From: Capsaspora owczarzaki ATCC 30864
Taxonomy: Eukaryota; Opisthokonta; Filasterea
Length of the DNA stretch: 64,000 nt
Assembly: GCF_000151315.2 (NCBI RefSeq)
Contig: NW_011887295.1
Location: forward strand, 1,605,914 to 1,669,913
Reading direction: 5' to 3'
Of the stretch, positions 1 to 31,395 are shown piece by piece (within the stretch, counting starts at the first letter, position 1; the number at the start of each line of letters is the position of its first letter). Position numbers and translations under genes: made by a program. The notes beneath the pieces are model-generated. The model did not search any database and was not told the DNA's origin. It saw only the letters and a program-made list of their open reading frames with translations.

Positions 1-2005
1 GCCAATAGGAATAACGGTGAGCTTTCCAAACACGAAACAAAACGTTTTCAGCACAAGTCTCAACGGGCGGTCGCTTCAATTACCCGTTTTCGGAAAAGAC
101 CACGCTGGTGATGGGCGCAGTGTGCTCGGAGAAGTTTAGCACGTTGGTCATTTCGTTGGCATCCCAGATACGGACAACGCCATCGACCGAGCCGGTTGCC
201 AAAATAAGACCGTCGGGGTGGAATTGGGCAGTGGTCAGACCTACAGCATGCGATGCAACACAAGGACGCGAGATGAGACACGGTCTTCGACGTGGCAGAA
301 AGCCCATTGCGAAAAAAAATTTTCTCGAAACAACAAAACAAAAGACTACCTACCGCTCGATTGAGGATCGTGTTGCTTGGCATACGTCGCGCCAGTTTCA
401 ATATCAGAGAATGCCCACTTGCCGTCCAGACCAGAGCTCACAACATACCGGCCCGTCGGCTGAAGGGTGACGGATGTGACTTCCTTGGTGTGAGCTTGGA
501 TGACTGTTCGGGTCACAAGGGTGTCAAAGACAGTCAGCCAAGAGCGTTGCAAAAAAAAAAAAAAAAATATGCAAAAAGGCAAAAAACCAATCCCAAAAAT
601 GCTTCACTCTTCGCGAAACATTTACCATGCTGGCAGCTCTCATTGCTGGACGTCCAAACGCGAACAGTGCGATCGGCAGAGCCAGTGACAACAACATCGG
701 AGGAGGGGTGGAAGAGCACGGACTTGACGGCGCCCTTGTGGCCCGACAGAGTTCCAGTGACCTGGCCAGAGGAGCGGTCAAACAGCTTGGCAGTCTTGTC
801 AGCGCCACCGGTGACGACGCGGAAGGGATCAGCGGCGTGAACGTCCAGCGCCAAGATGCCGGGCTGGCTGGCAGAGTGGATGCCACTGCGGGCCTCCGTC
901 TGTTGGAATTGGGCAATCGCGTCCTGTGACGTGAGGCCAGCGGGCTTCTTGCGACCGCGACGGGCGTCGGACAGAGGCTTGGAGGCCTCCTGCATCGCAG
1001 TCACGACCTGCGACGGGAGGGTAGTCGAGCCAGCATTGGCGGCAGCGGCAGCGTCGCCCTCCGTGTCCATCGCGGACGCACCAGCGTTGCTGGCGTGGCT
1101 GGACACCTGGACATTTGCCAGCGCTTGGCGAGCAGCGTCGCGCTCGCGGGTGAGACGGGCAATCACACGGCAGGCGGCGTCGTGCTGGTACAGCGTGTGC
1201 GTGAGTTCCTTCTGGGACTGGTCGTAGTGCTGCTTCAGCTTGAACGTCTCGAGCATGAGCGCGTCCCACTCGTCCTGGAGCGTCTTGAGCAACGCAGGGA
1301 TGCTTGTTGCAGACGGCGGGCGCGGGCGCACCGTCTTGGGCACCTTGACGGCAATGAGATCGTGCTCGCCCAGCGGCTCCTCCGTGAGTGGATCGCGGCC
1401 GTTCTCGGCGATATACTTGAGGATGAGCCTGCGCTCAAAGATGCCGCCCGACACGCGCGACACGACCGGCTCCTCGGGCGCCTCACCCGACACTGTGGAT
1501 CACAGAAAACAAAACAAAAAAAAAAAAAAAAAAAAAAGGTCAGAGAACAGCATTGCATTGAGTTTCATTCAAATCAGCATTAAAGCGAGCGAGCGATGTT
1601 GTGATGTCTTTCTTTTGTTGAATCGTTTGTGTGTCAGTTTGAATGAAAATGGACAAAGCATCAGATCTCTCAACCTTGATCGTCGTCGTTGCTTTCGTCG
1701 TCGTTGCTTTCGTCGTCGTTGCTGAAGCGTTTCGTTCTGTTGGCGAAAATCCGAGATCGCCTCGTTTTTTGTTGTGAGTTCTGCTTTTTTTTTCTTGCTT
1801 CTTGTGCTCTGGTGAGCGACAGGTGCGATCTGCCGCCCAATCGCATGTGATGCGTGACATCTACATCTGTAGCCTTGGGAAGCGGGGAGGGGGGGGGGAG
1901 CAGCAAGGCGGGGTTGGTGGGGATGGAGAAACGAACATTCACCCAAAGGGCGGGAAAGCACAGGCAGTCGCGTGCGAGCAGCCAAGTGAATGCAGCGTGC
2001 ATCGA

Positions 2006-8132: not shown

Positions 8133-11100
8133 TCAAGCACGGGCGTTCAACTTTTCCAACTGACGAAGGACGGCATCGAGGCGAGCATCCAAGTGCGTCT
8201 CCACGTCTGCTAGACGTGAAGCGAGCGCTGCGACTGCGGCTTCGGCTGCCTGCTGGTGGGAGGAGGCGCTGTTGGCTGCAGCTGCTTTGGCTGCAGCTGC
8301 ATCCTGGACGGCTTGGGTCGGAACCACAAAGTGAACCCACTTTGGAGCCATCCGGGCGCGCTGCTTCGGAGTCATGGCCATTTCGAACTCGGCGATGATG
8401 CCGGCAAGCGAAATGCGCCATTCAACCTCTGCATTCTCCTTGACGTTTTGGTAACTGTCGGACAGAAGGGCTGGCAACCAAAACCGAGCAAATCAAGGGC
8501 AACCCAAAAATCAGCAAGTGAGCGGTGGTGCCCTTCATTGCCTCTGTCGCCAAAAAACTCCAACCCCGAAGCATCCCCCCCCGCAAAATCCAAATCAATA
8601 CGCACCAATCAACACGTTCAGGAGAATGACAGTCATCAGGGCTGTAAAGATGCCCCAGATGATCTTGGCCAGCACGGGAGTGATCGAGTCGTCGTATTCG
8701 CCAAAGTCGAAATCACCAAGAAGAATGCGATAGGACGTGACGACGGACTGCGACCATGTCTTGTAGCTGGGAACCGCGGGAGATCCGCCAAAGAGCACGT
8801 AGAAGGCGTGGCCAAAGCTCAAAATGAGTAGAATGAGCAGCGCCAGGAACATGACAATGTCTTGGATGATGCGCGAAAGCGCAAACACGAGGATACCAGC
8901 TTGCTGCGAGGCCTGGGCGAACGAAACAAGACGAAACCACAACAGCAGTCCTGCAACGGCCACCACGCCGGCCTCTGCCGTCTGGCATGTCGCTCGCAAC
9001 GGCACAATGGCCAGCACCAAAAGGGCCGCGATCATCTCGACGAGGTTCCACAATGAGAAGAACCACATCTTGCCCTGCTTGTACATTTTCACCAAATTGT
9101 ACCCGACCAGGTACAGGTCGACAAGCAGTGTCAGGCACTCGAATCCAAGCAAAATCCAGTCGCCCGCGTTTTCGAAAGCCGGGACAGTCGAATCGAATGG
9201 GAAGGACTCGCATCTGTTGAGGATTCGAGGAAGATGCGGCAAACAAAAAACCAAAGCAAATAAACAAACAAACGAAACACACACACAAAAACCCCACACC
9301 AACAATGAAAGAAAAATGAGATCAGCAAATCGCACACACAGCAATCACGGTCGACATTGTCGGTGCGAGACACACTCTCCCCAAGTCACCTCCCACAGAA
9401 ACTTACGTGGCGTTGCGTGAAATCGCAAGAGCAGTCACAATGGTATACAAAACCACAAAGCAGGTATACCACAGGAGCCACCAGAGGAAGCGGTTGCGGC
9501 CGAAGGCCTGCCACTTGTAATCCATCACGGCGTGCATGATACCAGTCCGGAAGATGTCCTTGTGGCGCGAGCGCAGGGCTGCATGCATGAACGTCTCGCG
9601 CAAGGCAGTCTTGTAGATGCGGGTGAAGCCTTCAGGATTGTGCGAATCAATGTTGCCTGTCGGAGGAACATTGAGAGATTTGCCTGTAAAGAGCGTGTTG
9701 ACGCGAGCAAAGAAATTGTTGCGGGGACGTCCGATGGTGGCCGAGTGTTCCGACATGGGCTTCGGGACGCCTGCGCCACCCAACGCGGCAGTGCTGGGAG
9801 GCGCCTCGACGGCTTCGGCAACCGCCGGGAGAGCACGGACCTGCGCGCGAGCATCAAACCCAAGAATGTACGGAAGGGGCACAACGCACAGCGAAACGGG
9901 CAGGCGCGTCTCGTACCAAAGACTGTCGTCATGCAGCTTGGCCAAGGCCTCGTCATCATCGTCATCGTCGAGCTGGCCTTGCTGGTGGGACAACTGTTGC
10001 GTGCCCTGCTGGTCAGACTGCACCTGGCGAGCGGTCGTGACGTTGGCGCGGCTGTTGGTCGCATCATGCTCTGCCACCAGATCCGACCAGACGGCGCTGG
10101 TGTCCATGAGCGAGTTGGACGCGCGAACCAGCCGTTCGTCTGGCTCAATGGGCGCGGTCAGGCCAGACTGCAGATTCTCGATGAGGGTTCCCACGGTCGA
10201 AAAGCTCGCGGCATCCACAATCGAAGGACTGGACCCGTCGGAGGTGGTGGACGCGTCCACGCGACCAATGCCAGCCGCACCAAGGCTCTGGAGGAAGGCC
10301 AGCGGGCGCTCATGGCGCGCCACCTCCAAGTAGGCGTGGGACACGCACGGGAAGAAGCTGAGCGGCCGCGAATCAAGCGGTGGCGCGCAAAGCATGTCCA
10401 GGTTCTCCAGAAGCTCTGTCGCAACGTCGGGGTACTTGCGAATCAAACGTGGAAGCAGTCGAGTGACTGCAAAGCCGTTGGATGGGTGCAAGCCAAACGG
10501 CGGCGTGTAGAGGCGACGAACAAGCAGCTGCACGGTCGACTTGTGGTTGCGAACCAACGCCACATCGATGGCAGTCTCGCCTTCGCTGTCCATGACAAGC
10601 AGGAACGGCGCATTGGCAGAGAGCAAGGCGCCAAGCAGGTCGTTGTTGCCACGCTCGGCTGCACGGTGCACGACGGTGCGACGTCCGTCGAGAAGCGGAG
10701 CGTTGATGGTGTGCGGGAACTCGCTTGTAATGCGGCGCAACGAGGCAAAGTCTTGCAGCTCGATCAGCAGTTCCATCGACGTGGTGGGCGGATCGCTCTT
10801 GGACACATCCATGACCGTGACTGCGCCTTCCTGCAGGGCGATGGCGACGACGACAACCCCCTGCAGCATGTGCTGCATCGAGCTGTTTGCAGCAGACACT
10901 GGCGCGCATGCCACACACTCTGCCTCGGACGACAGGCGGAAGGCCATCTCGCACACGAGCGACGAGCTCAGCAGCGACCACACCTTGAGCGTCCGGTCTC
11001 GACCGACGGTCAGCAGACGCGCTCCGTTGGACGAGAATGCGCTCGAGGTGACGGCATTGAGATGGGCCTGGTGGAGGGTAACAATGGGACTGAAGCTCGG

Positions 11101-13661
11101 GGTTGAAGTGAAGCCAGAGGCCGTGGCGTAGATGCCAATGCCGCCAGCAATGGTCACATCGTCGGCGGCGGGGGAATCAGTCGCTCCGCCATCGGAATCG
11201 AGCGACACGGCCTTGCCGCCAGCACCGCCTCGCATGCGTGCGAGCGCTCTGACGTCCCAGATCTTGACAGACTTGTCGAGCGACGTGGTTGCCAACCTCG
11301 ACCCGTCGGGCGAGAAGCTGGCAGAGAGAACAGAGTTGGTGTGGTCTTGCAAAACATTCAGAGGGTTGGTGATAATGGGCGGGGAGGAGGCGCCCACTCC
11401 AGCGGCGGCAACGGCGGCCAGGATCTGCGGGATTGACCAAAGACGGACGGATCGATCAAACCCACACGAGACGAGCAAGGTACCGTCGGGCGAAAACACG
11501 ACATAGTTGACGGCACCCTTGTGGCTGGCCAGAGTGGCGACAAGCTGCACAGTGACCGTTCCCCCGGCGGCAGATGAGGTGGCGTATCTCCACAGCTTGA
11601 TGGAGCCGTCGCCAGACGCGGTAGCAATCAGCGGATCTCTCGGTCCGAACGTCGCGTAGTTGATGGGCCCATCGTGGCCAGTACCTGTGGCCAAGCAGGT
11701 TCCCGTGTTGGAGTCCCACAGCTTGAATGTCTTGTCCCAAGAGCTCGTCAGAATCATTTTTCCAGTGCGTGGTTGGAAGCAGCAGGACTTGACCGTGTGG
11801 CTGTGGCCAGTGAGCTCGAGGAGGGTTTCGCATGTGGCCGCATCCCACACACAGACCGGCCCCAGCGCGGCGGAGCTCACCACGCGCTTCCCATCGGGAC
11901 TGAACGCGCAACAAACCACGGCTTTGACGTGTCGGTAAAAGTTTGGGGTGGGTTCGATCTGCGAGTCAATCACGCGCAAACCATAGTCCTCCGTCGCATA
12001 GCTGCACAGCAAGCGCGAGCCGTCGAGAGAAAAGACGGCGTTGAGCAGGCTGCCCAAAGCGGCAAGACTGGCCACAAAAGTGGGGTTGACGCCTCCGGAG
12101 ACGGCCGCACTCGCTGCAGAAAGGGCACTGCTGCCTGTGGAAAAGCCACCAGGGCTCGTCGGAGACTGTGGCATGGGCGATGCGGAGAAATCGCCGCTTC
12201 CCGAGTAGTCGCTAGCCGCGACAGGGATCAAGGCGTGAGTGGTCATGTCGAGGCGGCGCAGCATGGCGCCGCAGCTCACATCCCAAAGGAACACCAGACC
12301 AGAGGACGAGGCCGAGACAATCTGGGACGAGTCTGGGGAGAATTCAACCGTGATGCGACCGGACGTTGCAGGGGCATGGCCGTAGAAGGAGCGGATGAGC
12401 ACGCCAGACGCTGGATTCCACAGGCCCACAACACCGTCCAGCGAGGCGGAGGCCACCAACGGCGAGCTGATGGACGGCGACCACGCGCAGGCGACAACCG
12501 CTGCCGAGTGCCCGATCAGGATGTGGTTGCACTGGCCCGTTGCCGCCGACCAAATGCGCAGAGTCGTGTCCTTGGATGCGGTCAGAACACGGCGACCTCC
12601 CGGCGAAAAGCGACACATAATGATGGACGCCGTGTGGCCCGAGAACTGACGAATCTCTTGACCGGACGAGGCGAAAAACAGCGCCGCGACGTGCTGGCGC
12701 GCATCGGACGAGGCAGCCACCAGGAACGCGCCAGAGTCGTGGGTGGCATCAATGCCGTTCTCGTCCAGACGGTCTGTCGAGATGGGCGGGACAACCGACT
12801 CGAGTGCCTGGATGGCAGGGCTAAAGTGGAGCGAGGTCATGTTGACCTTGGCGGCCAAACCTCCGAGCTTGCTAACGCGGTTTCCGGTCGAAGCCTCGAG
12901 CACGTACACAGAGGTGTCCCAGGCTGCGGAGGCAATGCGCTTGCCATCGGGCGAGACGGCCACACTGTCCACACCCTCCGTATGCAGGCCACGCACAACG
13001 CTGACGGCCGGCGGCGAGGGACTGGCGGGTTTGCGCTCTGCCAGCTGCTGCTGGGAACTCGTTTCGACCTGGTCGAGCGGCTGGGCGGTCTGCGAGTGCC
13101 ACAGGCGCAAGGTCGTGTCGCGGGAGCCCGTCACAAGCCACGACTGGTCGGGTGCAAACACTGCCGACGCAATGGCCTTCGTGTGCCCTTGCCCAACAAC
13201 AACAGCAGCAGCAGCAGCAGCGGTAGATTTCGCATCGGGCGTGGAGAGCGTCGCTCCCGCCGCACCCGCCACACCTGCCGCCGCCGCAGCACCAGACCCC
13301 GCAGTCGCCGTCATGGCGTGCGAGTGCAGAGTCGCGGGGCTGTTTGTCGCTGCGTCGGTCAGGTTGTTGCTGTTGTTGTCGGCGAACAGCGGATTCGGCG
13401 AGTCAGGGCGTGAGAGTGGGCTGACGGTGCCGCTGCCAGGGTCGCCGCCACCCAGCATCACACCCGCGCCCGCGTCGCCCGCTGCTGCTGCTGCTGCTGC
13501 TGCTGCATTCGAGCGGTGGGTTGCAGCGAGCGAGCCCAGGAAGAGCTGCATCTTGACTGCGCGCACTCGCTGGATGGCTTCGATGCCAGCGGATACTTCT
13601 TCAGCTGCTGCTGTTGCTGTTGCTGCTGCTGCGGGATCCGCGTCGAGCTGCTTGAGCTCCA

Positions 13662-13695
<34 letters not shown>

Positions 13696-13704
13696 ATGAC
13701 TCAT
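8133..13704 (-). CDS. Double WD40 propeller - ankyrin - TRP-like cation channel fusion
   Basis: Three exons (9407-13704, 8606-9213, 8133-8470) splice in frame to 1747 residues. After a poly-Gln start and an Ala/Gly-rich linker come about 14 WD40-type blades (roughly residues 175-950; for example GHTASIIMCRFSPGGRRVL and GHSHTVKSCCFQP), enough for two seven-bladed propellers. Ankyrin-like repeats follow (GRRTVVHRAAERGNNDLLGA; DSEGETAIDVALVRNHKSTV). Next is a six-helix ion-channel region: S1 FLWWLLWYTCFVVLYTIV, S2-S5 in exon 2, then a pore loop containing ILLGDFDF and an S6 ending VILLNVLIALLSDSY with a post-S6 EVEWR motif. The GTGCGT donor at 8605 was chosen because it restores the TRP-family LNVLIALLSDSY motif and keeps frame. 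The product should be a plasma- or endomembrane cation channel with large cytosolic propellers. The TRP family is established; the WD40 fusion is what the sequence shows; gating and ligand are unknown. Confidence 0.9.
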
Positions 13705-14285: not shown

Positions 14286-15223
14286 ATGAGCGACTCGAAG
14301 GGCATCTTGTTTGTCTGCTTTGGTAAGCCAAATCCGTTTTTTTGCCAAAGCGTCTCAGACATTGTCATCAAAACAGAGCTCACATCCCATTGCTGCTGGT
14401 GCAACAGGGAACATTTGCCGTTCGCCGATGGCCGAGGCGCTCTGTGCACACCTGCTTCGGGCGTCAGAGCAAGTGGAGCAAACCGCATCTGCATCAACAC
14501 AGCCGCACTCGCGGTCGCTGCGGTGGTTTGTGGGCTCGGCAGCCACCTCCGATTGGAACGACGGCCAGCAACCCGATCCACGGACATTTAAAATCTGCCG
14601 CCACCACGGCGTCTTCCTCTCGCACGTCTGTCGACAGGTATGAACATCGTTCATGCCTGTATCAGGAGTTTTTTTCGGGGGCGGGCGGTCGGCGGTGATG
14701 GCTTGAAGTGTGTCGAGTTTGGTGACTGACGCTCTTCGTGCTCAAACGTGGTTTCAGGTCGTCGAGGATGATTTCGATCACTACGACTTCATCCTGGCCA
14801 TGGACCGAGAAAACTACAAGTATTTGCAGACAATGAAGGTTTGGAGCTGAAGAGCTTTTGAGTGTTAATCGCTGTCAAGGCTGTTTTGGCCTATTTGTTT
14901 TCTCACCTCGTCTTGTTTGTCTCTCGCTCTCTCTCATTTAGGCTGGCTCGTCCAAAGGCGCACGACTTGAACTGCTGGGCGATTACGACCCTAAAGGCGT
15001 TCGTGAGATTCTGGACCCGTTTTATGCAAGTCGCCAATGATTGAAAGTTGTGTTTGCATTTTGTTTCCCCATCCGTTGATGTGTGGTTGTTGCTCACCCC
15101 GATCTTGCTGCTTTGCTTGTGTAGGGCGATGAACAAGACTTTGAAAATGTGTATCAGCACATATTGCGATGCCTAAAGCCATTTTTGACAAAGCACTGCA
15201 ATCGTCCGTTTGTGTTTCAATAA
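14286..15223 (+). CDS. ACP1: Low-molecular-weight protein tyrosine phosphatase
   Basis: Five exons (14286-14322, 14408-14637, 14758-14838, 14942-15025, 15125-15223) give 176 residues with every phase consistent. The catalytic P-loop CFGNICRS (C-x5-R-S, Cys11 to Ser18) is split by intron 1. The general acid is in the LGDYDPKG motif (Asp132), followed by REILDPFYG and DFENVYQHILRCLKPF, all standard for the family, which dephosphorylates phosphotyrosine in the cytosol. Compared with the usual length of about 158 residues there is an insertion of about 18 residues after the P-loop region (about residues 28-60). Intron 4 begins with GC (exon end at 15025) rather than GT. The stop codon TAA lies inside an AATAAA hexamer (15219-15224), so the polyadenylation signal may overlap the end of the ORF. 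Confidence 0.95.
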
Positions 15224-15443: not shown

Positions 15444-18400
15444 TTAGACTCGGGTGATGGAGAGCTGGAAAGTGCGGATCTGCATGGGCTGCAGAGTCAC
15501 CGAGATGCCAGCATCAATGGACTTGAAGAAGGCCTCCTGAGCCTTGTTCTCAGCGACAGCAGTGTGGCTCCACTGCAGACGCGAGACTTGAGACGAGCGC
15601 TGGTTGGCAGACAGGTTGTACTCGACGGCACTGGTGACAGTCAGAACAGAGGGGTCAAACAAGGTCGACAGGTCGAGCGTGACGGGGCCAGAGTACTTGG
15701 TGTCTTCGTTCACTTCGTAGAAGTGCTCCAGGCGAAGCAACACCTCCAGATGCGACGGGCCGTACGGGAGGATTTCGAAGGTGAGCAGGTGAATGTTCGG
15801 GGGCAGGGGGCTGTCCAGGGCAGTCCAGGACGTGACGTGGTTGGCAACGTAGGTGGCCACATCCGTGGAGAGGGGCGCAAGAGCCATAGCGACAGGGTGG
15901 GCGATGAGGACGGCAGAGGGGTGGACGGCACGCGGCGAGAGCGCGGCAGTCTCGAGCGTGACGTACATGATGCCACGAATGACAAGACCAGTGCCAAGCA
16001 GGCCCGTCTCGTTCAGCGGCTCGCCAACACCACGAGAATCGTCGTAGAAGAGGCGACGGTGGACCATGAGCTCGAGCTGGCCGTCGGCGAGGGAAGAGCC
16101 GCCCATCGAGCGGTCGGTCAGGATGGAGAGCTGACGGTTGTTGGTCTTGTCGATCGTGTGGATGCGCGAGTTGACGGGGTAGTAGTTTCCGGCAACCGGC
16201 TCGGTGACGTTGAGCTTCCAAGTGGGGCGGTAGTTGAGGTCACGGCGCTGCATCTCGCGGCCGTTGGCGTCAGTGTAGAACGTGCCGCCAGAAGCCAGAT
16301 CGCTCGAGAAGCGAGTAATGACCTCCTTGCCTTCCGGAATGTCGTAGGGAATGGGGCCGATGGTGTACTCAAACTCGACGTCGTTGTCGCCATCGTACAG
16401 GCGGACAATCTGGGTGACCCAGTTCGAGAAGACCTGGCGGACCTCCTGGAAGACGCTGCCGCGAACGACAGTCACGCCAATAGGGGCGGCATTGACGGGG
16501 AAGACGGCAGTGCGGTTGGGACGGAAAATGTACGCGCCAGACGCCTGCTCGTCGTCGGAGGTGCCCCAGGACGAGTTGTAGTAGAAAAAGTCTTGGGTGA
16601 CGGCAGAGGAGATTTGGCTAATCTTGTTGGTGAGGGACTTGAGGCGACCAGTGTTTCCGTCAAAGGTGACGATAACGTTCTGGTTCTCCATGGTCACGTC
16701 AGCCTTGGGCGCAAAGCTCTCGGCACCAGTGTCGATAAACTCCTCAGCGCTGCGAATCTTCTCGACAGCGGCAGTCTCGAGAGCGACATCCTCGCCGTTG
16801 GGGCCGGAAGTGCGGTTGACAAAGTAGGTGGCAAAGCCAAAGCCGGTGGTGGGGACGGCAAAGACAAGGAGGTAGTTGGCGGCAGCGGCAGCTTCCTCGC
16901 CGAGAATCTCGGCGCGAAGGCGCTGGGTCTCGAAAGGCATGCTCACGACCTGCGAGGGAATCACAAGGCCCTTCTCGTCATAGACAGCATACGAGCCGAA
17001 CGGGACGGGGAAGCGAGGAAGGTGGGCACGAGCAAAGCCAACGGGGTTGTAGACAACCAGGGTAAAGTTGGCGCTGGTCTCGCTCATTGCGCAAATGCTC
17101 ACGTTGAGCAGCGGGCACTGGACAAACTCGGTCACGCTGGGGCCAGAGACAAACGTCAAGTCGCCGAGAGCACGGTTGATGACAGTCTCGCACTCGGACA
17201 GACCTTCCGAGACGCGGCGAGCATAGTCGTAGGCAACGTGCTGCTTGGAGGTGCCAGAGACACCGTCGTGGTGCTGCAGGACGGCCACGGCCAGGTTGAG
17301 CTGCTCAGAGTTGGCGAGGTTGGAGTGGCCACGGACGGCCTCGAGCTGCTTGCACGACTGGAGGAAGGCGGACGACGTGCGCTCAAAGCCCTTGAGCGCG
17401 ATGCGCGAGGTAAAGTAGCCAGTCCAGTAGGCGTGCGGGCCGTCGGCGTACGGGAAAAAGTCGTCCGTCTTGTACGACCAGGTCAGGTTGGCGGCATGGA
17501 GCGAGTCGAGGTAGATGGACGGGGTCGAGTAGAAGACGTTGACGCGGCCATCGGCGTTCACGTAGTGGATGAGCTTGTCAAGGTTCTTGAACCACAGGCG
17601 AGCGTTCGAGTACTGGAAATCCGAGCCCATGGTGAGCTGGATGTTGTTGGTGCGGTAGTGCTGGGCCTGGTCGAGGCAGGCGGCAACAAAGTCGTTCACG
17701 CGCTCCTCAACGTTGACGTCCTCGAGGCGGAAGTCGTCCTGGATGGAATCGTCGCCGCAGTACTGGTCAAAGCAAAACCCATCCGGAGGGTTGTAGCCGT
17801 TGTAGTTGACGCCGGCAAAGATCTCCGAGGCGGCACCAAGCGACGAGCTGCCGCGCCAAATCATCTCCATGTCCTTGTCCTTGAGGCGGCGGTCCTTGTC
17901 CTGGTAGTCGATGCGGCCAAAGAAGAAGCCGTCAAAGCTCATCTGGGCAAACAGCGAGGCAAACTCGTTCGAGTGGCCGAACGGGTCAATGTGCCAGCCA
18001 ATGCGCGGCTTGACGCCGAACGTGTTGAGCAAGAAGCGATGGCCGAGCGTCATCTGATCGATGGTGGCAACGTAGTGGGTGGCGGCCTCGTCCGACATGA
18101 CAATGCCTCCGTTGATAAACTCGAGGCGGCCCTGCTGGACGTACTCCTTGACGCGCTTCTGCGTGTCCTCGTCCTGCTCCTGCCACCAGCGCGAGAAAAA
18201 GTAGATTTCGACGTAGATGAACTTGCGATCCGGGTTGAGCTCGAGCTCTTGCATGACCGTGTCGAGCACAAACTGGACCTTGGCGTCCTGGATTGAGTTG
18301 TTCAAGCCGGCGTAGTATTGGTCGGGGTTTTTGAGCCAGCCGCTGATCAGAGAGCAACACAAAAACAAAAAAGCGACGGGATTGGATGCAAGGTGAGTTA

Positions 18401-18904
18401 CAAAGTGCAACGTGCATGAGTGCATGAGTATTGAGTGGGATGTGGGATGGAGGATGGAGTGAGTGAAATGAGCAATCGAGTCACAAGCACCAATCTGATT
18501 CTCTTCGTCCCAACGCCGGGCACCGTGGCGTTTCTACTGCGTATTTATTGGGTTGATGTTACGGTCCACTGTGGAAGATGCACAGCCCGTGTGTCCGACT
18601 CGGAAAGAGAGGGCAAGTGAGGGGGTGACTTACACGTCGTCGTGAGTGTGTGCGACCAAGTGCACGTTGAGCTTGCCAGCCATCGGGCCGCCGGAGGTGT
18701 TGTACTTGGGGGCGCTCCTCGCAGGCAGCGCGAGCGAGCACTGTTACACAAGGGATGGGCAATGGATGAGAAAACGAGCAGAAAACAACCAAACAAAACA
18801 AAAAATCGATTAGAGGCGAGGTTGGCAAAACATAGCCGCGAACACAGCGAAAGAGTATCAAAGAAGCAGGTTTTAAACCACTAAACGATACCAACAATTT
18901 GTTT

Positions 18905-21708: not shown

Positions 21709-24700
21709 TCAGATGTCGGCGCGCGGGCTGGAGAGGGTGCGCCGGAAGACAACATCGAAAAAGCCTCGCTTGGGGACTGCACTGGGCGAATCGAGCGCGA
21801 CAGGGGAGCCGGGACCGGTGGAGGTGGCGAGACGACGCGAAAGGGCAGCGGGCGACGAATGGGCGCTGGACGACAGCAATGCTGGGACAGCACCGGAAGC
21901 AGCACCGTCCTCGGGGCTCAAAAAGGCCAGCGAGCTGGTCGACTCCGACCTCAGCATGGCAGCTTCGTCAAGCCGCTCGCGCAAGATGCGCTTGAACTCA
22001 ACCAGACCCGCCATCATGCCGGAAGACAGGGACAGGACGTGATGGCCGGTCGAGGGCATTTGGAATGGCAGGGGATGCAGCGGGTCGAGCAGCAGGGTGA
22101 CCACAGCGGAGCCGGCCGAGGCCGAAGTGACGAGCGCAGCGCCCGACGTGCCGCTAACACCAGCCGTGCTGCTATTCATGGCCGCGACATGGGTATGAGG
22201 GGTGCCAATGCCAAGCTCTCGCGACGCCACTGCGTTCGATTGGTGCAACTGAGCAATATACTGGGCCTGAACGTGGTCGGACGAGTCGGCGACTGCCACG
22301 CCCCACCGCAAAATGCCTTCTCGCGAAGCAGCAAGCAGCTGCGCATCTACCGCGTTCATGGTGCGTCCAACGACACAGTCAATCAGTGTGGCCGGCACAG
22401 TGTTCGCGCCTGCCGCGTCCTGGTCCCGGAACCGCTCGAGAAAGTGGCGCAACTGGACAGAATTGAGCTCGGTGCAGGTATCGCAGATCGGATCCATGTC
22501 TCCCAACGAAGACTTGTTCATTTGCAGCAGCTGCGCAACTTGAACAAGGACGCCAAGCTGACTAGCAGCGTTGCGCAAGCCCTTCGAGTTGGCCCAATCC
22601 TCAATCCGCGAAATATTGAACCGCAGTTGCATGCCCTGTTGCCAGCGGTACGCGAGATGCGCCACGGCTGCCGGGTTGGTGACAGCCAGCGTCGCACCAG
22701 AGGTCAAGCCGCCAGAGTTGCCTGCAAACTCTGGAAGCTGGGCCAGCAGGTGGCCGTAAAACGACATGACTTGCTGGTTTTGGACAGTCAGCTGCTGCGC
22801 GGATGTGCCTTGGGCGCGCATGACGGGAGAGGCAGGTGCGGACGACATGGAGGCGATCGGGGAGGCGTGAGGGCTGCTGCCAGCACTCGCCACCGCAGAG
22901 GTCGATGCGAGCAGCTGCTGGTGTTGCTGGAGAAGCTGCTGTCGGTAGGGCATTGTGTGGAGCATGTGCTGCTGCTTCTGTTGCTGCATGGACTGGTTTG
23001 TGCTGGCCGAGAAGGCCAGACCCTTGTAGACAATCAGATTAAACACGACGGCCGTAATCCAGTGGAAGAGCTGGGTGAAGAGCTGGGATGTAATCACGGG
23101 ATGAACCGTGCAGTCGTTGACAATGTCCAGCATGATGGTCAACGTCTCGAGCAGCAAATCCACGGAAAACGGCGACGGATCGGTCGCTCCTATGGCGACG
23201 CCACTGCCAGTAGTACTCGGCGAAGGGTCCAGCGAGCCATGCAAGAGGCCAGGAAGCAAGAGCAGAATGCGTGCTTGGATGGCCACCAGGAGGCTCTGGA
23301 AGGTGTCTTGCACAAAGTCGGTGAGCGAGAGCTGCGTTTCGCCCGACAGCGCCATCAGGTCAATGTCGCGCCGCAGACACTGCAGCAGCTCTGAGGCATT
23401 CGCAAGCCAAAAGCTGAGCATTTCCACGTCGCGCGTTGTGCGCCATCGCTTGTGAGACAGCTCGAGGCATCGGATGATGGACGACATGAATTCAATCATT
23501 TCGTCCTCAGAACTGTGGGCCTCCACGCAGTGGCGCAAAGTCATGTAGAGCAGACTGGCAGGAGTGAGACGGAATGGCACCATCCGCGTCGTCATCTCGG
23601 CAACAAGAATGCTCAGGATGGATTCGCGCTCGGCTTCCTTGTGCGCAAAGGAAAAGTGTCTCGTCAAGAACGGGTTGTCCATCGTCGACGTTGTCGACTG
23701 CGTTCTTGGCCGCGCCAAGCGCTGCTCGTGCCCGTCGCTCTCGTCGTGCGCGTCAGCGTCGCTTTTGGTTTTGTTGTCGGTGTCGTCGCCGTGGTCGTCG
23801 TCGCCACCGTCGTCGTTGTTGTCGTTGACCTCATCATCTGCCGAACGTTCCCCAGATTCAGAAATGTTTGAGAGCGAATTGGTGCTGCCATCAAAGCGAG
23901 GGGGTGGAGCAAACTGAGTCATCGTAGACGCGACATTGACTGGCATGCCAGAAATCGCATCGGTAAGGATTAGATTGTCAGCCGGTTGCCACCCGACGAT
24001 CGAGAAGGGGACGGCGCGACGTGGAGCAGGCCGTTTGGGTGGCGAGGTTGGCCTGATGCGGGCGCCAGCGTTGCTCGACAACGTCCCGTCCGAGAGGGCA
24101 GTCGCACCATCATCGCCGTCCGGCAGTGGCGGTGGCGACGACGCACTCGTCGTCAGCATCTCCAAGTCGTCGAAATCCTCATCGCCAAGATTGTTCCACA
24201 CAAGACTACCAAACACCAGCGCATCGCCATGCAAGCGTGCTGTGCCTGACGCATCCACTGCAACATAGGCAGAGCTTCCTGCCTCGCTGGAGCTGCAGCT
24301 TGTCATGGCGCGAAGCGGTGGCTGCGGCGAAAGCGGCCGCTGTCGACCGCTCTCGTTCGTTGGCGCCTCGAGCAAGTTTGTACTACTCGCCGTGACACTG
24401 CCAGACTGCGGAGAGCCGGGTCTTCCAGACAGCGACAACTCGAGAGCAGGGTTGTTGCTGGCGCTTCCAAACCCCAGCTTGTTTTTCTCGTACAGCTCTG
24501 AGGAAGCAAGGGCCCAGTCCATTGTACGCGTGGGTTGCGTGGAGTTCGACCGCTCGGCGCGCGCTTCCTCTGGGTGAACAAAGCGGAAGAGATGTCGACG
24601 CCCGATGGCGACCCGGTATCCCTGGTGCAGCCGGACCGGTCCAGCCTCGTTCTTGGCAATGTTGCCATTAATGTAGACCTCGGCACCGGGACAGGCGTGG

Positions 24701-26677
24701 ATGGTAACCACACCATCAACACACAGTATGATGCAGTGGATGGCTTGGACGGAAGAAGACATGAGCTTGATGTCTGCATCCTCGGCCGAGCCGATGGTCG
24801 TTTGCGGAATCCGTAGTCCGTACACGAGATATTCAGACATGAGGGGATCCTCGTTCAAATTGACAAAGTGGGGCCCTGACTGTGGTGCGTTCAGCGCCGT
24901 GACGCGAGAAGACGAGGAGGCAGAAAGCACATTGTCCGCCAGCATGGCCGTTGGATGGGCTGCCAAGGTTGAAACAGGGTGAGTGCTCGTGGCGCCCGTG
25001 TCGCCGTCAGCAGAGGCCAAAATACCGAGCCGGGTGAGCATGTGTTGCCGGTCGATGTGCATGTCGTGGGACTGCTGCACACGCTCATCCCAAGGAGCCG
25101 AGAGCTGCACAATGAGCTTTTCTGCCATTCGCAAGCGCTCAATGAGATCGTCACCAGTCTGTGGTGGCGAATCTGCCGTTGCCCCGGGAGACATCGGGCT
25201 GGTGCCACTGTCGAGTGCTGACGGCTGGGATTCGTCGTTGAAAACACGGCTGCTCCGGACTGTTCGTTCTCCATCATCCAGACCGTCGTCCAGTTCAGCA
25301 TTGCCGCCACTGTTGTGCGGGTCAGACGCAGTAGCAGCAGTGCTCGGCGCGGCAAGCGGGGCAACACCGCTCGTAATAAAACCTTGAAGTTGCTTTCGCA
25401 GCTCTTCAATTTCCGCGCGCATTTCTCGAATGAGCTTTGCGCGAGGATCTTCATTCACAACGGCACGGTTGACAATGCGCTTGGCCTGGTATGCATAGCG
25501 TAGGGTAGAAAGTGTTTCTTCGTAGTTTACGTCTGCAGGGCTCAGTGTTGCTGTCGAGGGCGGTGGAAACAGAATCCGTTTCAATCAAAGTCAACAACAA
25601 GCATTCTGAATGTTTCGCGAACAACGTTGTCGAGTGACTCCCATTCCGTTCCGCCCACCTCCCCTATCGCCCCTACCTCCGTCGCAAGAAACAAATATTT
25701 CGCACATTGCTCCAAAACCTCAAAGCCTCACCAATCATGACTGTTTTAGAGTTGCCGCCAAGAGAGTCCTTCAAGAGCCAGGTGAGCGTGGAATCTCGGT
25801 AGGGCACGTGCGTTTCCTTTGCCTTTTTGCCAGAGCCAATGTCAGCGAGCGCGGCGATGACCTTTCCAAGCGTTGAGAGCGACTTGTTGATGTTGGCGCC
25901 CTCCTTTAAGCGAGTACCCGTGGCACCCGTAGCGTCAGCGCGCTCGCTACCAGCAAGATCAACAAGACTGATGCGACTGGATTGGCCCAGCGCCATTCCG
26001 GTGGCGGGGTCGACGCGAGTTCGGGTGAGCAGAATGGTGAAGATGGCATGCGAACGAGAGCTGACTGCGTTCATGTTTGTCGAGCCAACAATGCGAATCT
26101 GCGTACAAGCAAGCAAGCAAGCAAGCAAGAGAGCAGAAAACAACGACGTGAGCATGATCGCAACATGCATGAGAGCGAGACTGATGCACCACCGGATGTG
26201 CTCTGTTTTACCTTGTTGCCTTCCTCCATCAGAGTCAGGATGTCTTGGAGAGAGGTGACGGCGTTGGTGGACAAGTCTTCGACGTATGGTCCGAGCAGTG
26301 GGTGTTCACGCAGCCGCAGGGTGTGCGACGACTTTGGATTGAGCAGATCGCGGACCTTCTCATTGTAAATTTCCATGTAGCTGACTTCGACCTTGAACGT
26401 TGTGGCTGTCTGCGTGGTCTGCTGCTCCGTTTCGATTCGAGCAAACAAGTCTTCGCAAAACCGAGGAATGATGCCTCGGTGCTCTCCACTGCCCGCGCCC
26501 ATCATGGCGTAGCTTTTGCCAGAGCCGGTTTGGCCGTAAGCAAACAAGCAAGTGTTGTATCCGCAAAACGCCTGCTCGAGCAAATCCTTTCCGAGTGACT
26601 CGTACACGCCCTTCTGGTCGACGAACGGCGCCATCGGCAAGCCTGCAATTGCGGGATCGACGTGGATGACTGGCTCT

Positions 26678-26714
<37 letters not shown>

Positions 26715-27126
26715 TGTTGCGAGCGGCTGGCTTGGTTCGCAATCCCGATCCGACTGAGCCAGCAGCAGCATTGGTACTTGCGGTCTTGCTACTTGCTTGA
26801 TGCTGGTCCCCTTGGTCATGGTGGTCATCTGGGTCATCTTCGGCATCTTGGTCACCAGCAGCGTTCGTGCCGCGCTGATTTGCGCTTGAGGCGACCATGT
26901 TTGTGTTTCCGCTCCACAGGCTGTGATCGAAGGCAAAGCGGTGGATTTTGCCCTGCGTGTACGGCGATGCAATGACTGTATCGACGCCACCAATGCTGCT
27001 GCCAGTGCTACCAGAGCTCGCGCTTGAGCCGGGGTCGACGGGCGGCATTGCAACCACACACAGCGCGCCCATCGCGAGCTCGCGGTCGTTCAGCGGCCGG
27101 CAGCGCACCGCCACCTTCACCGACAT
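21709..27126 (-). CDS. Kinesin motor protein with FHA and dilute (DIL) domains
   Basis: Exons 26212-27126, 25732-26098 and 21709-25550 give 1707 residues. The motor starts at the N-terminus ([15 protein letters not shown]); the P-loop GQTGSGKS is at about residues 198-205, followed by switch [14 protein letters not shown], switch [10 protein letters not shown] and the neck-proximal [19 protein letters not shown]. An unusual insertion of about 85 residues (acidic, His-rich, then poly-Ala) sits between FAFDHSLW and VYESLG. A short coiled coil ([17 protein letters not shown]) follows. Then comes an FHA domain (about residues 665-765) and a long Asp/Ser-rich linker. A large helical region (about 1065-1470) resembles the DIL cargo domain of class V myosins and afadin ([35 protein letters not shown]). 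Motor plus FHA is typical of kinesin-3; motor plus DIL is not something I can name in animals. The role is presumably plus-end transport of membrane cargo. Confidence 0.92.
26682..26711. repeat. (GCA)n triplet run encoding the poly-Ala of the kinesin motor insertion
   Basis: CAG/GCA triplets on the + strand, read as Ala codons on the minus strand, within the insertion between the early motor strand and the nucleotide-binding part of the kinesin. Confidence 0.8.
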
Positions 27127-28879: not shown

Positions 28880-31395
28880 CTACAAGGTCGTCGAGGAGCG
28901 CGAGGCGTCGGAAGAGGTAGAGGGCGTGACGCTGGACGAAGGTGCCACCAGCTGGTATTGCACAGAGAACAGTGACGTCCCCAAATGGTGCTTTCTGAGG
29001 GGAATGATGTGCGGATTGTTGAGGAGCGTGTACGCCACTTGCCAACGAAGGCGCGCCTTGGTGTACCCTGCAGAATCGGGATCTCTCGGCCGAGCAATCG
29101 TATGGTACGAATTCTCCTCGTCGCTATGTGCGAGCAATGGGCGCGAACGCGGCTCGTAGGGGTCGTTGGATGTGCTTGTGGCTAGGACTCGGTTGGACAT
29201 CTTTTGGTGCAGACTCATTCGGTTGCGTTTGGCGGCGTTGTCGCCATTTCCGGAGCTGTTTCGCGTGCTAGCCGGTTGCATCAATGCTTGGTGCGAATCT
29301 ACGCTTTGATGGGAGGCAAAGTTGGCGACGGCAAGCACCAGGTACGGGTTGCCGTAGTAGTGATCGAGCATGAGGAATCCAATGTACGCACGGTAGCCTT
29401 GGTCCCACCCCTCGTAGTCGTTCAGTGTGACGCACTTGTCCAGACGAGAGAAGAAGAGCGCGATGAAGAGCAGTGCCTTGAGCACGCGCGCCAAGTACGA
29501 GAAGAGACCGACCACAATGTTGACGAAAATGTAAAAGTAGTCAAAGTTGTGCCAAAGCCGGCGATTGTCAATGCTCATCGACATGTCCACGCTGAAAACG
29601 AATCGGGCGAGGACATACTGGAAAAACATAAATCCAAACGAGACCAGCAGCGGGAAGAAAAAGTAGTTGAGCGCCCACGGCCAAAACACCTCGCGAATCG
29701 CATCGACAAACAAGCTCATTGCGATCAACGAGCAGACGAGCAATAGAACGATGGACGTGAACGCGAAACTGAGCATCATGTAGGCAATCTGATAGCCAGA
29801 GTATCGCACAGTGTCGCTCATGTGGCGCCTCTGTGCGAGAATGCCTGGTCGAATGAACGAGTAGTTGCCTCGACGCATCATGCAAATGTGGCTGCGGTAC
29901 GTGAGGATGGTCTGGAATGCACACCAGACCAGCAACAGGATCGTCAAGGCCATGGCAACGAGGGCGCACACTTTTGAAATGACTTGAATTTCGTCAAGCG
30001 TGTGCTGAGAAACAGCATTCCTGTACAACTCGACGAGCAAGTCCGACACCGACAAGGCGATAAACAGCAGGAGGATGAAGAGCTCGAACAGGATGACGCC
30101 CGTCACCACAAAGGTCGAGATGAGACGCGGAGAGTACAGAAATCCAGGAACGGTCTGGTAGAAGGGCAATGTGAAGGATTGGGGGCTGGTGGTGGTGGTA
30201 GAAGCCGTGGCGGGGGAAACACTCTCAAACCGCACAGGAAGGCTGCCTCTGGGTCGCAAGAGCGCCTTCATGCTGTCGTCATGCAGGAAGCGATCGATTT
30301 TGCCCGAACGCAGTCCTGGACCGTCAGAGGATGTTGGAGGTGCAAACCCAGCCCTGGGCGCGCCTGCACGAGCCACCAGCCGGGACTGGACATAGACTCG
30401 GTACTTTTCAAGCGTTTCGGCATGGTCGGATGCTGTCGAGCTCGAGTGTTTGGATGTGAGCAGGAAGAAAACTCCTTTGGTGAAATGCAGCACGACAATC
30501 GCCATGCAGATCAATGTAGGTATCACCGATACGGCGAACGGGAAGAAGTTTGCCTGAATGGCAGTGCTGTACACGAGCAGCGCGAACATGTACATGGAAT
30601 ACAGCCATCCGACGACCAGCATGAGCGGATGGTCGCGGTACGTGTGACAAACGAATAGCGGGTAGAATTGGAAGGCCACCTGAAGCAACAGCGCCATGTA
30701 GTAATACTGCACATAGTAGGTATTGACGCTGTCCGGGAGCGGATCGAAAAAGTACACCGAGAAAATCGAACTGCCCGCAGAGCCAAACAGAAATGCCGTC
30801 ATCAAGCGTTCGCTGCGATTTTCCAGAAAGTTCATTGGTCTAATAGCAAGCAAGAGGTAGCGTTCGGTACAAGTTGGACGATGCAAGTGAGTTGAGTGAT
30901 TGCAGCCATGCGAATTTGGATCCCAAACAATCAATCCCACGGCTCCCTCCAAACCATTTATTCACCCACAACCTTTTCATCCCATCCATACCACCACCAC
31001 CCCCCCCCCCAACATTCGCCATCGACCATGCGCCTTCTGCTCCTGAGCCAAGGCTTCCTGAGCCGAAACAATCAAAACAAACCCACTCAACCCTTTCACC
31101 TCCGCGCCCGCCCCCTCCCCAATCGCCTCCACCTCAATTGCATGGGGAGAATCACGCATGGAGCTTGCGCGATCGTGATGGCAACGATAGTGGACGTGGC
31201 TTACATCGGAACGGACGGTCCCATGTGTTTGAGGTGGGCTTCGCTCGTTCGCGGTTTCAGCATGACGCCAAGCAGCACAATGACACCCGCAGCAATGAGC
31301 CGGATGTCGTTCAGCACGGCAGGAACATAGTCCGGAGCGCCCGAGTCGGTCGTCGAGTTGCTGCCAGAGTCGCCAAACTCACCCTGGCCGAACAT
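28880..31395 (-). CDS. STRA6: STRA6-like multi-pass membrane protein (retinol transporter/receptor family)
   Basis: Exons 31205-31395 and 28880-30839 give 716 residues; the join (codon AT|A) reads GPSVPIPMNFLENRSERLM. Several blocks follow vertebrate STRA6 as I recall it: PMNFLENRSERL for human PVDFLAGDRPRA; YYYMALLLQVAFQFYPLFVC for FYYAALYYPLAAC; GYQIAYMMLSF for AYQTAFICLGL; WDQGYRAYIGFL for LDPGYYTYRNFL; and near the C-terminus RLRWQVAYTLLNNPHIIPLRK for [21 protein letters not shown]. About nine hydrophobic helices are visible. The N-terminus is a short extracellular-type segment with NST sequons followed by a first helix (IRLIAAGVIVLLGVML). STRA6 mediates cellular retinol uptake from its serum binding protein in vertebrates; that ligand would not exist in a protist, so the substrate here is open. 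Confidence 0.82.

Follow-up and report, generated by a model that had tools for sequence, protein, structure and literature searches.

TRP channels share a pore, and what sets them apart is for the most part what is joined to it. The ankyrin domain of TRPV channels has six repeats, and Inactive, a fly TRPV (PDB 9nvn chain B), carries such a domain and is not known to have propellers. WD40 propellers, in turn, are general interaction platforms. The gene described here (Table 1) lies in a stretch of 64,000 nucleotides of contig NW_011887295.1, hereafter the window, to which all positions refer. Judging from its sequence, it appears to place a new domain architecture on a known kind of channel, with a WD40 double propeller and a TRPV-type pore encoded by one protist gene.

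Excerpts of published work report TRPML in Capsaspora and, citing Cai and Clapham 2012, both TRPP and TRPV in Thecamonas (PMC7312350), as well as ten predicted TRP channels of five families, including TRPV, in Salpingoeca (PMC10770216). A TRP survey centred on TRP-N drew on the Capsaspora genome (PMC4494053), and TRP-CC expansions are described for Glomeromycotina (PMC8778642); the excerpts of both papers leave WD40 unmentioned. Among the titles and abstract openings listed from open-licence PMC papers, none describes a WD40-TRP fusion, which is weak evidence of absence. Protein databases presumably list WD40 plus Ion_trans architectures for some early-diverging fungi; if so, the novelty of the present case is lower.

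Gene structure and order of the domains

By all sequence evidence, the WD40 arrays, the ankyrin stretch, and the channel belong to a single gene. A low-complexity N-terminus, both propellers, ankyrin-like repeats, a linker, the pre-S1 helix, and S1 follow one another in exon 1 within an open frame of 1432 codons. Since this frame is unbroken from the WD40 region to S1, the fusion is not a mis-joined pair, and a split gene is rejected on the same ground; both the continuity of the exon and the genuineness of the fusion had been claimed by an earlier sequence-only reading of the window. Without splicing, the frame closes at a TAA made by bases 2-4 of intron 1. Both introns have GT-AG ends, with splice junctions inferred from the sequence. 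Intron 1 is clearly AT-richer than its flanking exons (GC content of 0.446 versus 0.625 and 0.544), and intron 2 only slightly (0.526 versus 0.544 and 0.595). The splice of exons 2 and 3 yields NVLIALLSDSYQNV, in which the last part of S6 leads into the TRP helix, so the TRP post-S6 motif that the same reading noted at this join is indeed restored.

An artefact of the gene model or assembly, with WD40 and channel being separate genes, is highly improbable. Antisense open frames of 524 and 579 amino acids (aa) are present in this GC-rich region and speak in its favour; however, the single open frame of exon 1 holds WD40, ankyrin, pre-S1, and S1, both inferred introns show GT-AG, and the joined S6/TRP helix aligns with known TRP channels. 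Codon usage also agrees between the WD40 and channel regions (59 codons, r = 0.90), which is expected of one gene yet, with these two regions as the only ones compared, is weak evidence.

Table 1. Features of the WD40-TRP gene, in positions of the window
Feature	Position	Strand	Description and basis
Whole gene	13704-8133	(-)	3 exons; 1747 aa plus stop; no internal stop once spliced
Exon 1	9407..13704	(-)	Residues 1-1432 and two bases of codon 1433; uninterrupted frame
Intron 1	9406-9214	(-)	193 nt; GTAAGT...CAG
Exon 2	9213-8606	(-)	S2 to most of S6, including the pore filter
Intron 2	8605-8471	(-)	135 nt; GTGCGT...CAG
Exon 3	8470-8133	(-)	End of S6, TRP helix (EVEWRISLAGIIAEFE), C-terminal tail; stop at 8135-8133
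First WD40 propeller	11935..13188	(-)	Residues 173-590, blades 1-7 (3 and 7 degenerate); Pfam WD40 and hand segmentation
Second WD40 propeller	10792..11934	(-)	Residues 591-971, blades 8-14 (14 degenerate); Pfam WD40, AlphaFold2, Foldseek
Ankyrin-like repeats	10519..10686	(-)	Residues about 1007-1062; Pfam Ank_4 1.5e-6, Ank_2 2.9e-6; PDB ankyrin proteins
Pore filter ILLGDFDF	8726-8703	(-)	Residues 1596-1603, exon 2; motif position
Possible C-terminal coiled coil	8148..8234	(-)	Residues 1715-1743; heptad pattern

Channel core and its probable TRPV-type assignment

When the channel part is scanned alone, Ion_trans matches residues about 1408-1649 with an E-value of 4.3e-17 (62.6 bits, cut-off 25), and PKD_channel is above its cut-off as well (1.7e-14). 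In the whole-protein Pfam scan, Ion_trans falls outside the best 25 of 54 families, a list filled by WD40-type families. Hydropathy gives six hydrophobic segments, which together with a pore loop correspond to the TRP superfamily, and the TRP helix with the TRP box behind S6, NVLIALLSDSYQNVKENAEVEWRISLAGIIAEFE, aligns with the same region of Inactive and TRPV3. Among the best 60 of 305 PDB sequences matched by the channel, Inactive comes first (1.5e-26), aligned from pre-S1 via S1-S6 to the TRP helix, followed by TRPA1 (1.9e-14), TRPV3 (4.4e-14), polycystin-2 (5.7e-14), and TRPC3 (2.4e-13). The TRP-type channel proposed from the bare sequence is thus retained by both the domain scan and the best PDB match.

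Regarding the Inactive segment, pairwise identity is 28% over 335 columns, and phmmer recovers it along with none of 200 shuffled decoys. Reversed residues 1161-1747 find no match among 177635 PDB sequences at E-values up to 10, which excludes a composition-driven channel match. A voltage-gated channel was also rejected: the S4 peak AGVVAVAGLLLWFRLVSFA has one arginine and would therefore not form the usual voltage sensor, and the same 60 PDB rows consist of Inactive, TRP channels, and polycystin-2. As for the possible C-terminal coiled coil, 7 of 9 heptad a/d positions are hydrophobic; when the 47-residue tail is shuffled 5000 times, 7 of the shuffled sequences attain this value.

The channel core is probably TRPV-type. 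Of the PDB sequences compared, those of TRPV channels are closest over the region from pre-S1 to the TRP helix: in Inactive, TRPV3, and TRPV6 the best-aligned stretch starts ahead of S1, no later than the pre-S1 helix (DYKWQAFGRN), and extends through the TRP helix, whereas the TRPA1 stretch starts at S3 and those of PKD2 and TRPC3 at S4 (a second TRPA1 stretch, which spans pre-S1 and S1, is insignificant).

A divergent TRP class of its own could be argued from the NCBIfam model TIGR00870 trp, which scores 88.1 bits (E-value 3.7e-25), far below its cut-off of 498.75, with the 389-residue channel part as the sole query and model positions 343-645 of 747 matched. The E-values of TRPA1, PKD2, and TRPC3, which lie near that of TRPV3 (TRPA1 being even ahead of it), and the lack of a full TRPV ankyrin domain point the same way. 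Such a class is nevertheless unlikely: in E-value Inactive is ahead by some twelve orders of magnitude, and the aligned stretches differ in where they start.

A further argument against a separate class comes from a tandem TRP pair on the same contig (C4, about 1.136 and 1.140 Mb) of the genome searched (27,456,641 bases, 29 contigs). In PDB, the pore exon of one of the two is instead nearer to 6pw4 (TRP-like ion channel), TRPM2, and YVC1, with weaker E-values from 7e-6; the comparison is rough, as the query is shorter and has no pre-S1. The pair resembles the present gene in its Ion_trans channel core and in ankyrin-like residues read by eye in the upstream frames; however, identity to this core is 24 and 22%, with E-values of about 1e-5. 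No WD40 is found within 200 kb of the pair among the matches listed, and a domain scan of the upstream exon of one paralogue gave no match.

Propellers, ankyrin stretch, and predicted function

On the whole protein, Pfam WD40 reaches 2.8e-81, and 11 stretches pass. Cutting residues 173-971 by hand, with blade borders of our own segmentation, results in 14 blades arranged as 7+7, of which 11 are canonical and 3 (blades 3, 7, and 14) degenerate. The sequence-only reading had counted about 14 blades in two propellers; the count agrees with the segmentation, the Pfam stretches being equal in number to the 11 canonical blades, and the arrangement is supported by Pfam and the segmentation, with a structure model backing the second propeller. 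This model was produced by AlphaFold2 for the second propeller plus ankyrins with a five-sequence alignment, consisting of that region, the first propeller, and three WD40 frames of the same genome. These 3 were the clean WD40 frames among 11 loci read on the forward strand. The remaining 8 were left out: 5 had the match on the other strand, 2 gave the wrong frame, and 1 contained intron-like stretches. Reading the 5 in reverse gave WD40-like frames at 4 and none at the fifth, all outside the alignment used for the model.

The model has a mean predicted local distance difference test score (pLDDT) of 66.3 and a predicted template modelling score of 0.62. Ten-residue blocks mostly reach pLDDT 79-98 over blades 8-13, bar one long inserted loop. 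Foldseek pairs it with 7-bladed WD40 structures of both designed and natural origin (E-value down to 1.9e-22), and the modelled second propeller resembles solved domains of this kind, confidently over about six blades and poorly in the last one. Both predicted propellers would fit the 7-bladed form of WD40 proteins, the first by sequence only. In PDB sequence searches with the WD40 part, 2ymu is the closest (8.5e-81), along with designed WRAP propellers, the dynein assembly factor DAW1, and APAF1.

In-register pairing of the propellers scores lowest of seven rotations (256 versus 275-336, without a shuffle control), and there is therefore no support for a recent clean duplication of a whole propeller. 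Among the WD40 places scored in the genome, the WD40 region has no close paralogue, the best other place scoring 68.9 bits with 35% identity over 141 residues; by eye, its frame resembles a RACK1-type WD40 protein of 302 residues without a strongly hydrophobic segment.

The ankyrin-like repeats expected from the sequence alone are right but small. Ank_4 and Ank_2 are above the Pfam cut-off, single-repeat models Ank and Ank_3 are below, and ankyrin proteins in PDB match the same stretch. Instead of about six N-terminal repeats, as in TRPV, about two are found, and the core is therefore named TRPV-type, not canonical TRPV.

According to our full explanation, to which we assign a probability of roughly 0.55, the product is a predicted TRPV-type subunit of a putative tetrameric Ca-permeable channel, whose propellers would bind a cytosolic partner, anchoring the channel and biasing its gate. 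Four subunits, perhaps aided by the C-terminal coiled coil, would assemble into the calcium-permeable channel, and the eight propellers of the tetramer would face the cytosol. Once bound by a protein there, the propellers would anchor the channel and might bias the gate via the ankyrin/linker region and the pre-S1 helix packed on the TRP helix. They would thereby take over the sensing or docking role held by the long ankyrin domain in other TRP channels. Cytosolic binding or anchoring via the propellers would be the likeliest role, and the chances of a gating role versus pure scaffolding are about even; the gating or localisation role suggested by the sequence-only reading is a reasonable prediction.

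Several observations weigh against this explanation. About two ankyrin repeats are recognised, and approximately 300 residues, partly of low complexity, separate them from pre-S1, so mechanical coupling between propellers and gate is not evident from the sequence. Blade 14 and almost everything after it have pLDDT <50 in the model, the ankyrin part is of low confidence there, and the first propeller has no usable model, since the single-sequence AlphaFold2 prediction for residues 172-1145 has a mean pLDDT of 35. Moreover, TRPA1, polycystin-2, and TRPC3 also match S3-S6 or S4-S6 at 1e-13 to 1e-14.

It is possible, although we hold it tentatively, that the role of the propellers is limited to localising or scaffolding the channel, e.g., at cytoskeleton, adhesion, or trafficking machinery, leaving gating untouched. 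Their established use as interaction platforms fits this, and the long linker ahead of pre-S1 would decouple them mechanically; the ankyrin-like repeats, however, adjoin the second propeller. Rather doubtful is a distinct TRPV branch, in which the double WD40 propeller stands in for most of the ankyrin domain as a cytosolic sensor, so that in a unicellular relative of animals calcium entry would be gated directly by an intracellular partner that binds it.

Genomic surroundings, significance, and comparison with known systems

Across the genome, Ion_trans is found at 11 places (all 12 candidates scored; several places are exons of one gene), PKD_channel at 4 (all 6 candidates scored), and WD40 at 61 or more (124 candidates, 55 scored). 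By eye, the channel frames that were read look IP3-receptor-type, two-pore, Kv-type, and TRP, the PKD_channel place on contig C1 not being among those read. Three very long open frames on contigs C7 and C17 (2734, 3113, and 6429 aa) have a C-terminal channel domain and by eye look IP3/ryanodine-receptor-type. None of the other channel places comes closer than 10 kb to any of the at least 61 WD40 places; in the nearest such pair, which occupies opposite strands of contig C7, the distance is about 13.6 kb. The present channel core also has a Prp19-like WD40 gene as a neighbour, about 8 kb away and separate from it; window positions 534-1493 (-) hold the frame of a Prp19-like splicing factor. In viral and prokaryote contigs, scans that reach close relatives only confirmed no relative (0 pattern matches in one, 0 of 14 in another).

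As for neighbouring genes, a frame at 14311-14643 (+), upstream of the TRP gene on the opposite strand, contains NICRSPMAEAL, similar by eye to the catalytic loop found in low-molecular-weight tyrosine phosphatases, and a GH38 alpha-mannosidase lies at 15444-18425 (-). Neighbouring frames at 21709-25584 (-) and 26071-27126 (-) carry kinesin motor, kinesin-associated, FHA, and DIL domains, and presumably represent a kinesin-3-type gene whose DIL tail is of the myosin-V/afadin kind. The frame at 28880-30952 (-) matches RBP_receptor (STRA6-type retinol-binding-protein receptor) with an E-value of 1.7e-42, in what is apparently a unicellular eukaryote.

A TRPV-type pore preceded by a WD40 double propeller would demonstrate an exchange of the sensory module within the broader lineage around animals, and the architecture would be a natural test of whether cytosolic protein binding can drive TRPV gating. 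T-box matches, present at six places on two contigs, suggest that the genome belongs to a unicellular organism closely related to animals; if it does, the gene would add one more pre-animal TRPV-like channel.

In comparison with known systems, Inactive has the same pre-S1, S1-S6, pore, and TRP helix with its Trp; however, its match to this protein is confined to the channel part. Vertebrate TRPV3 and TRPV6 share the core as well, with best stretches from before S1 to the TRP helix, but have a six-repeat ankyrin domain versus the two propellers and about two repeats found here. On the WD40 side, APAF1, a cytosolic apoptosome protein, and 2ymu, a highly repetitive propeller, are both among the top PDB matches; each has two consecutive propellers but, in contrast to this protein, no channel.

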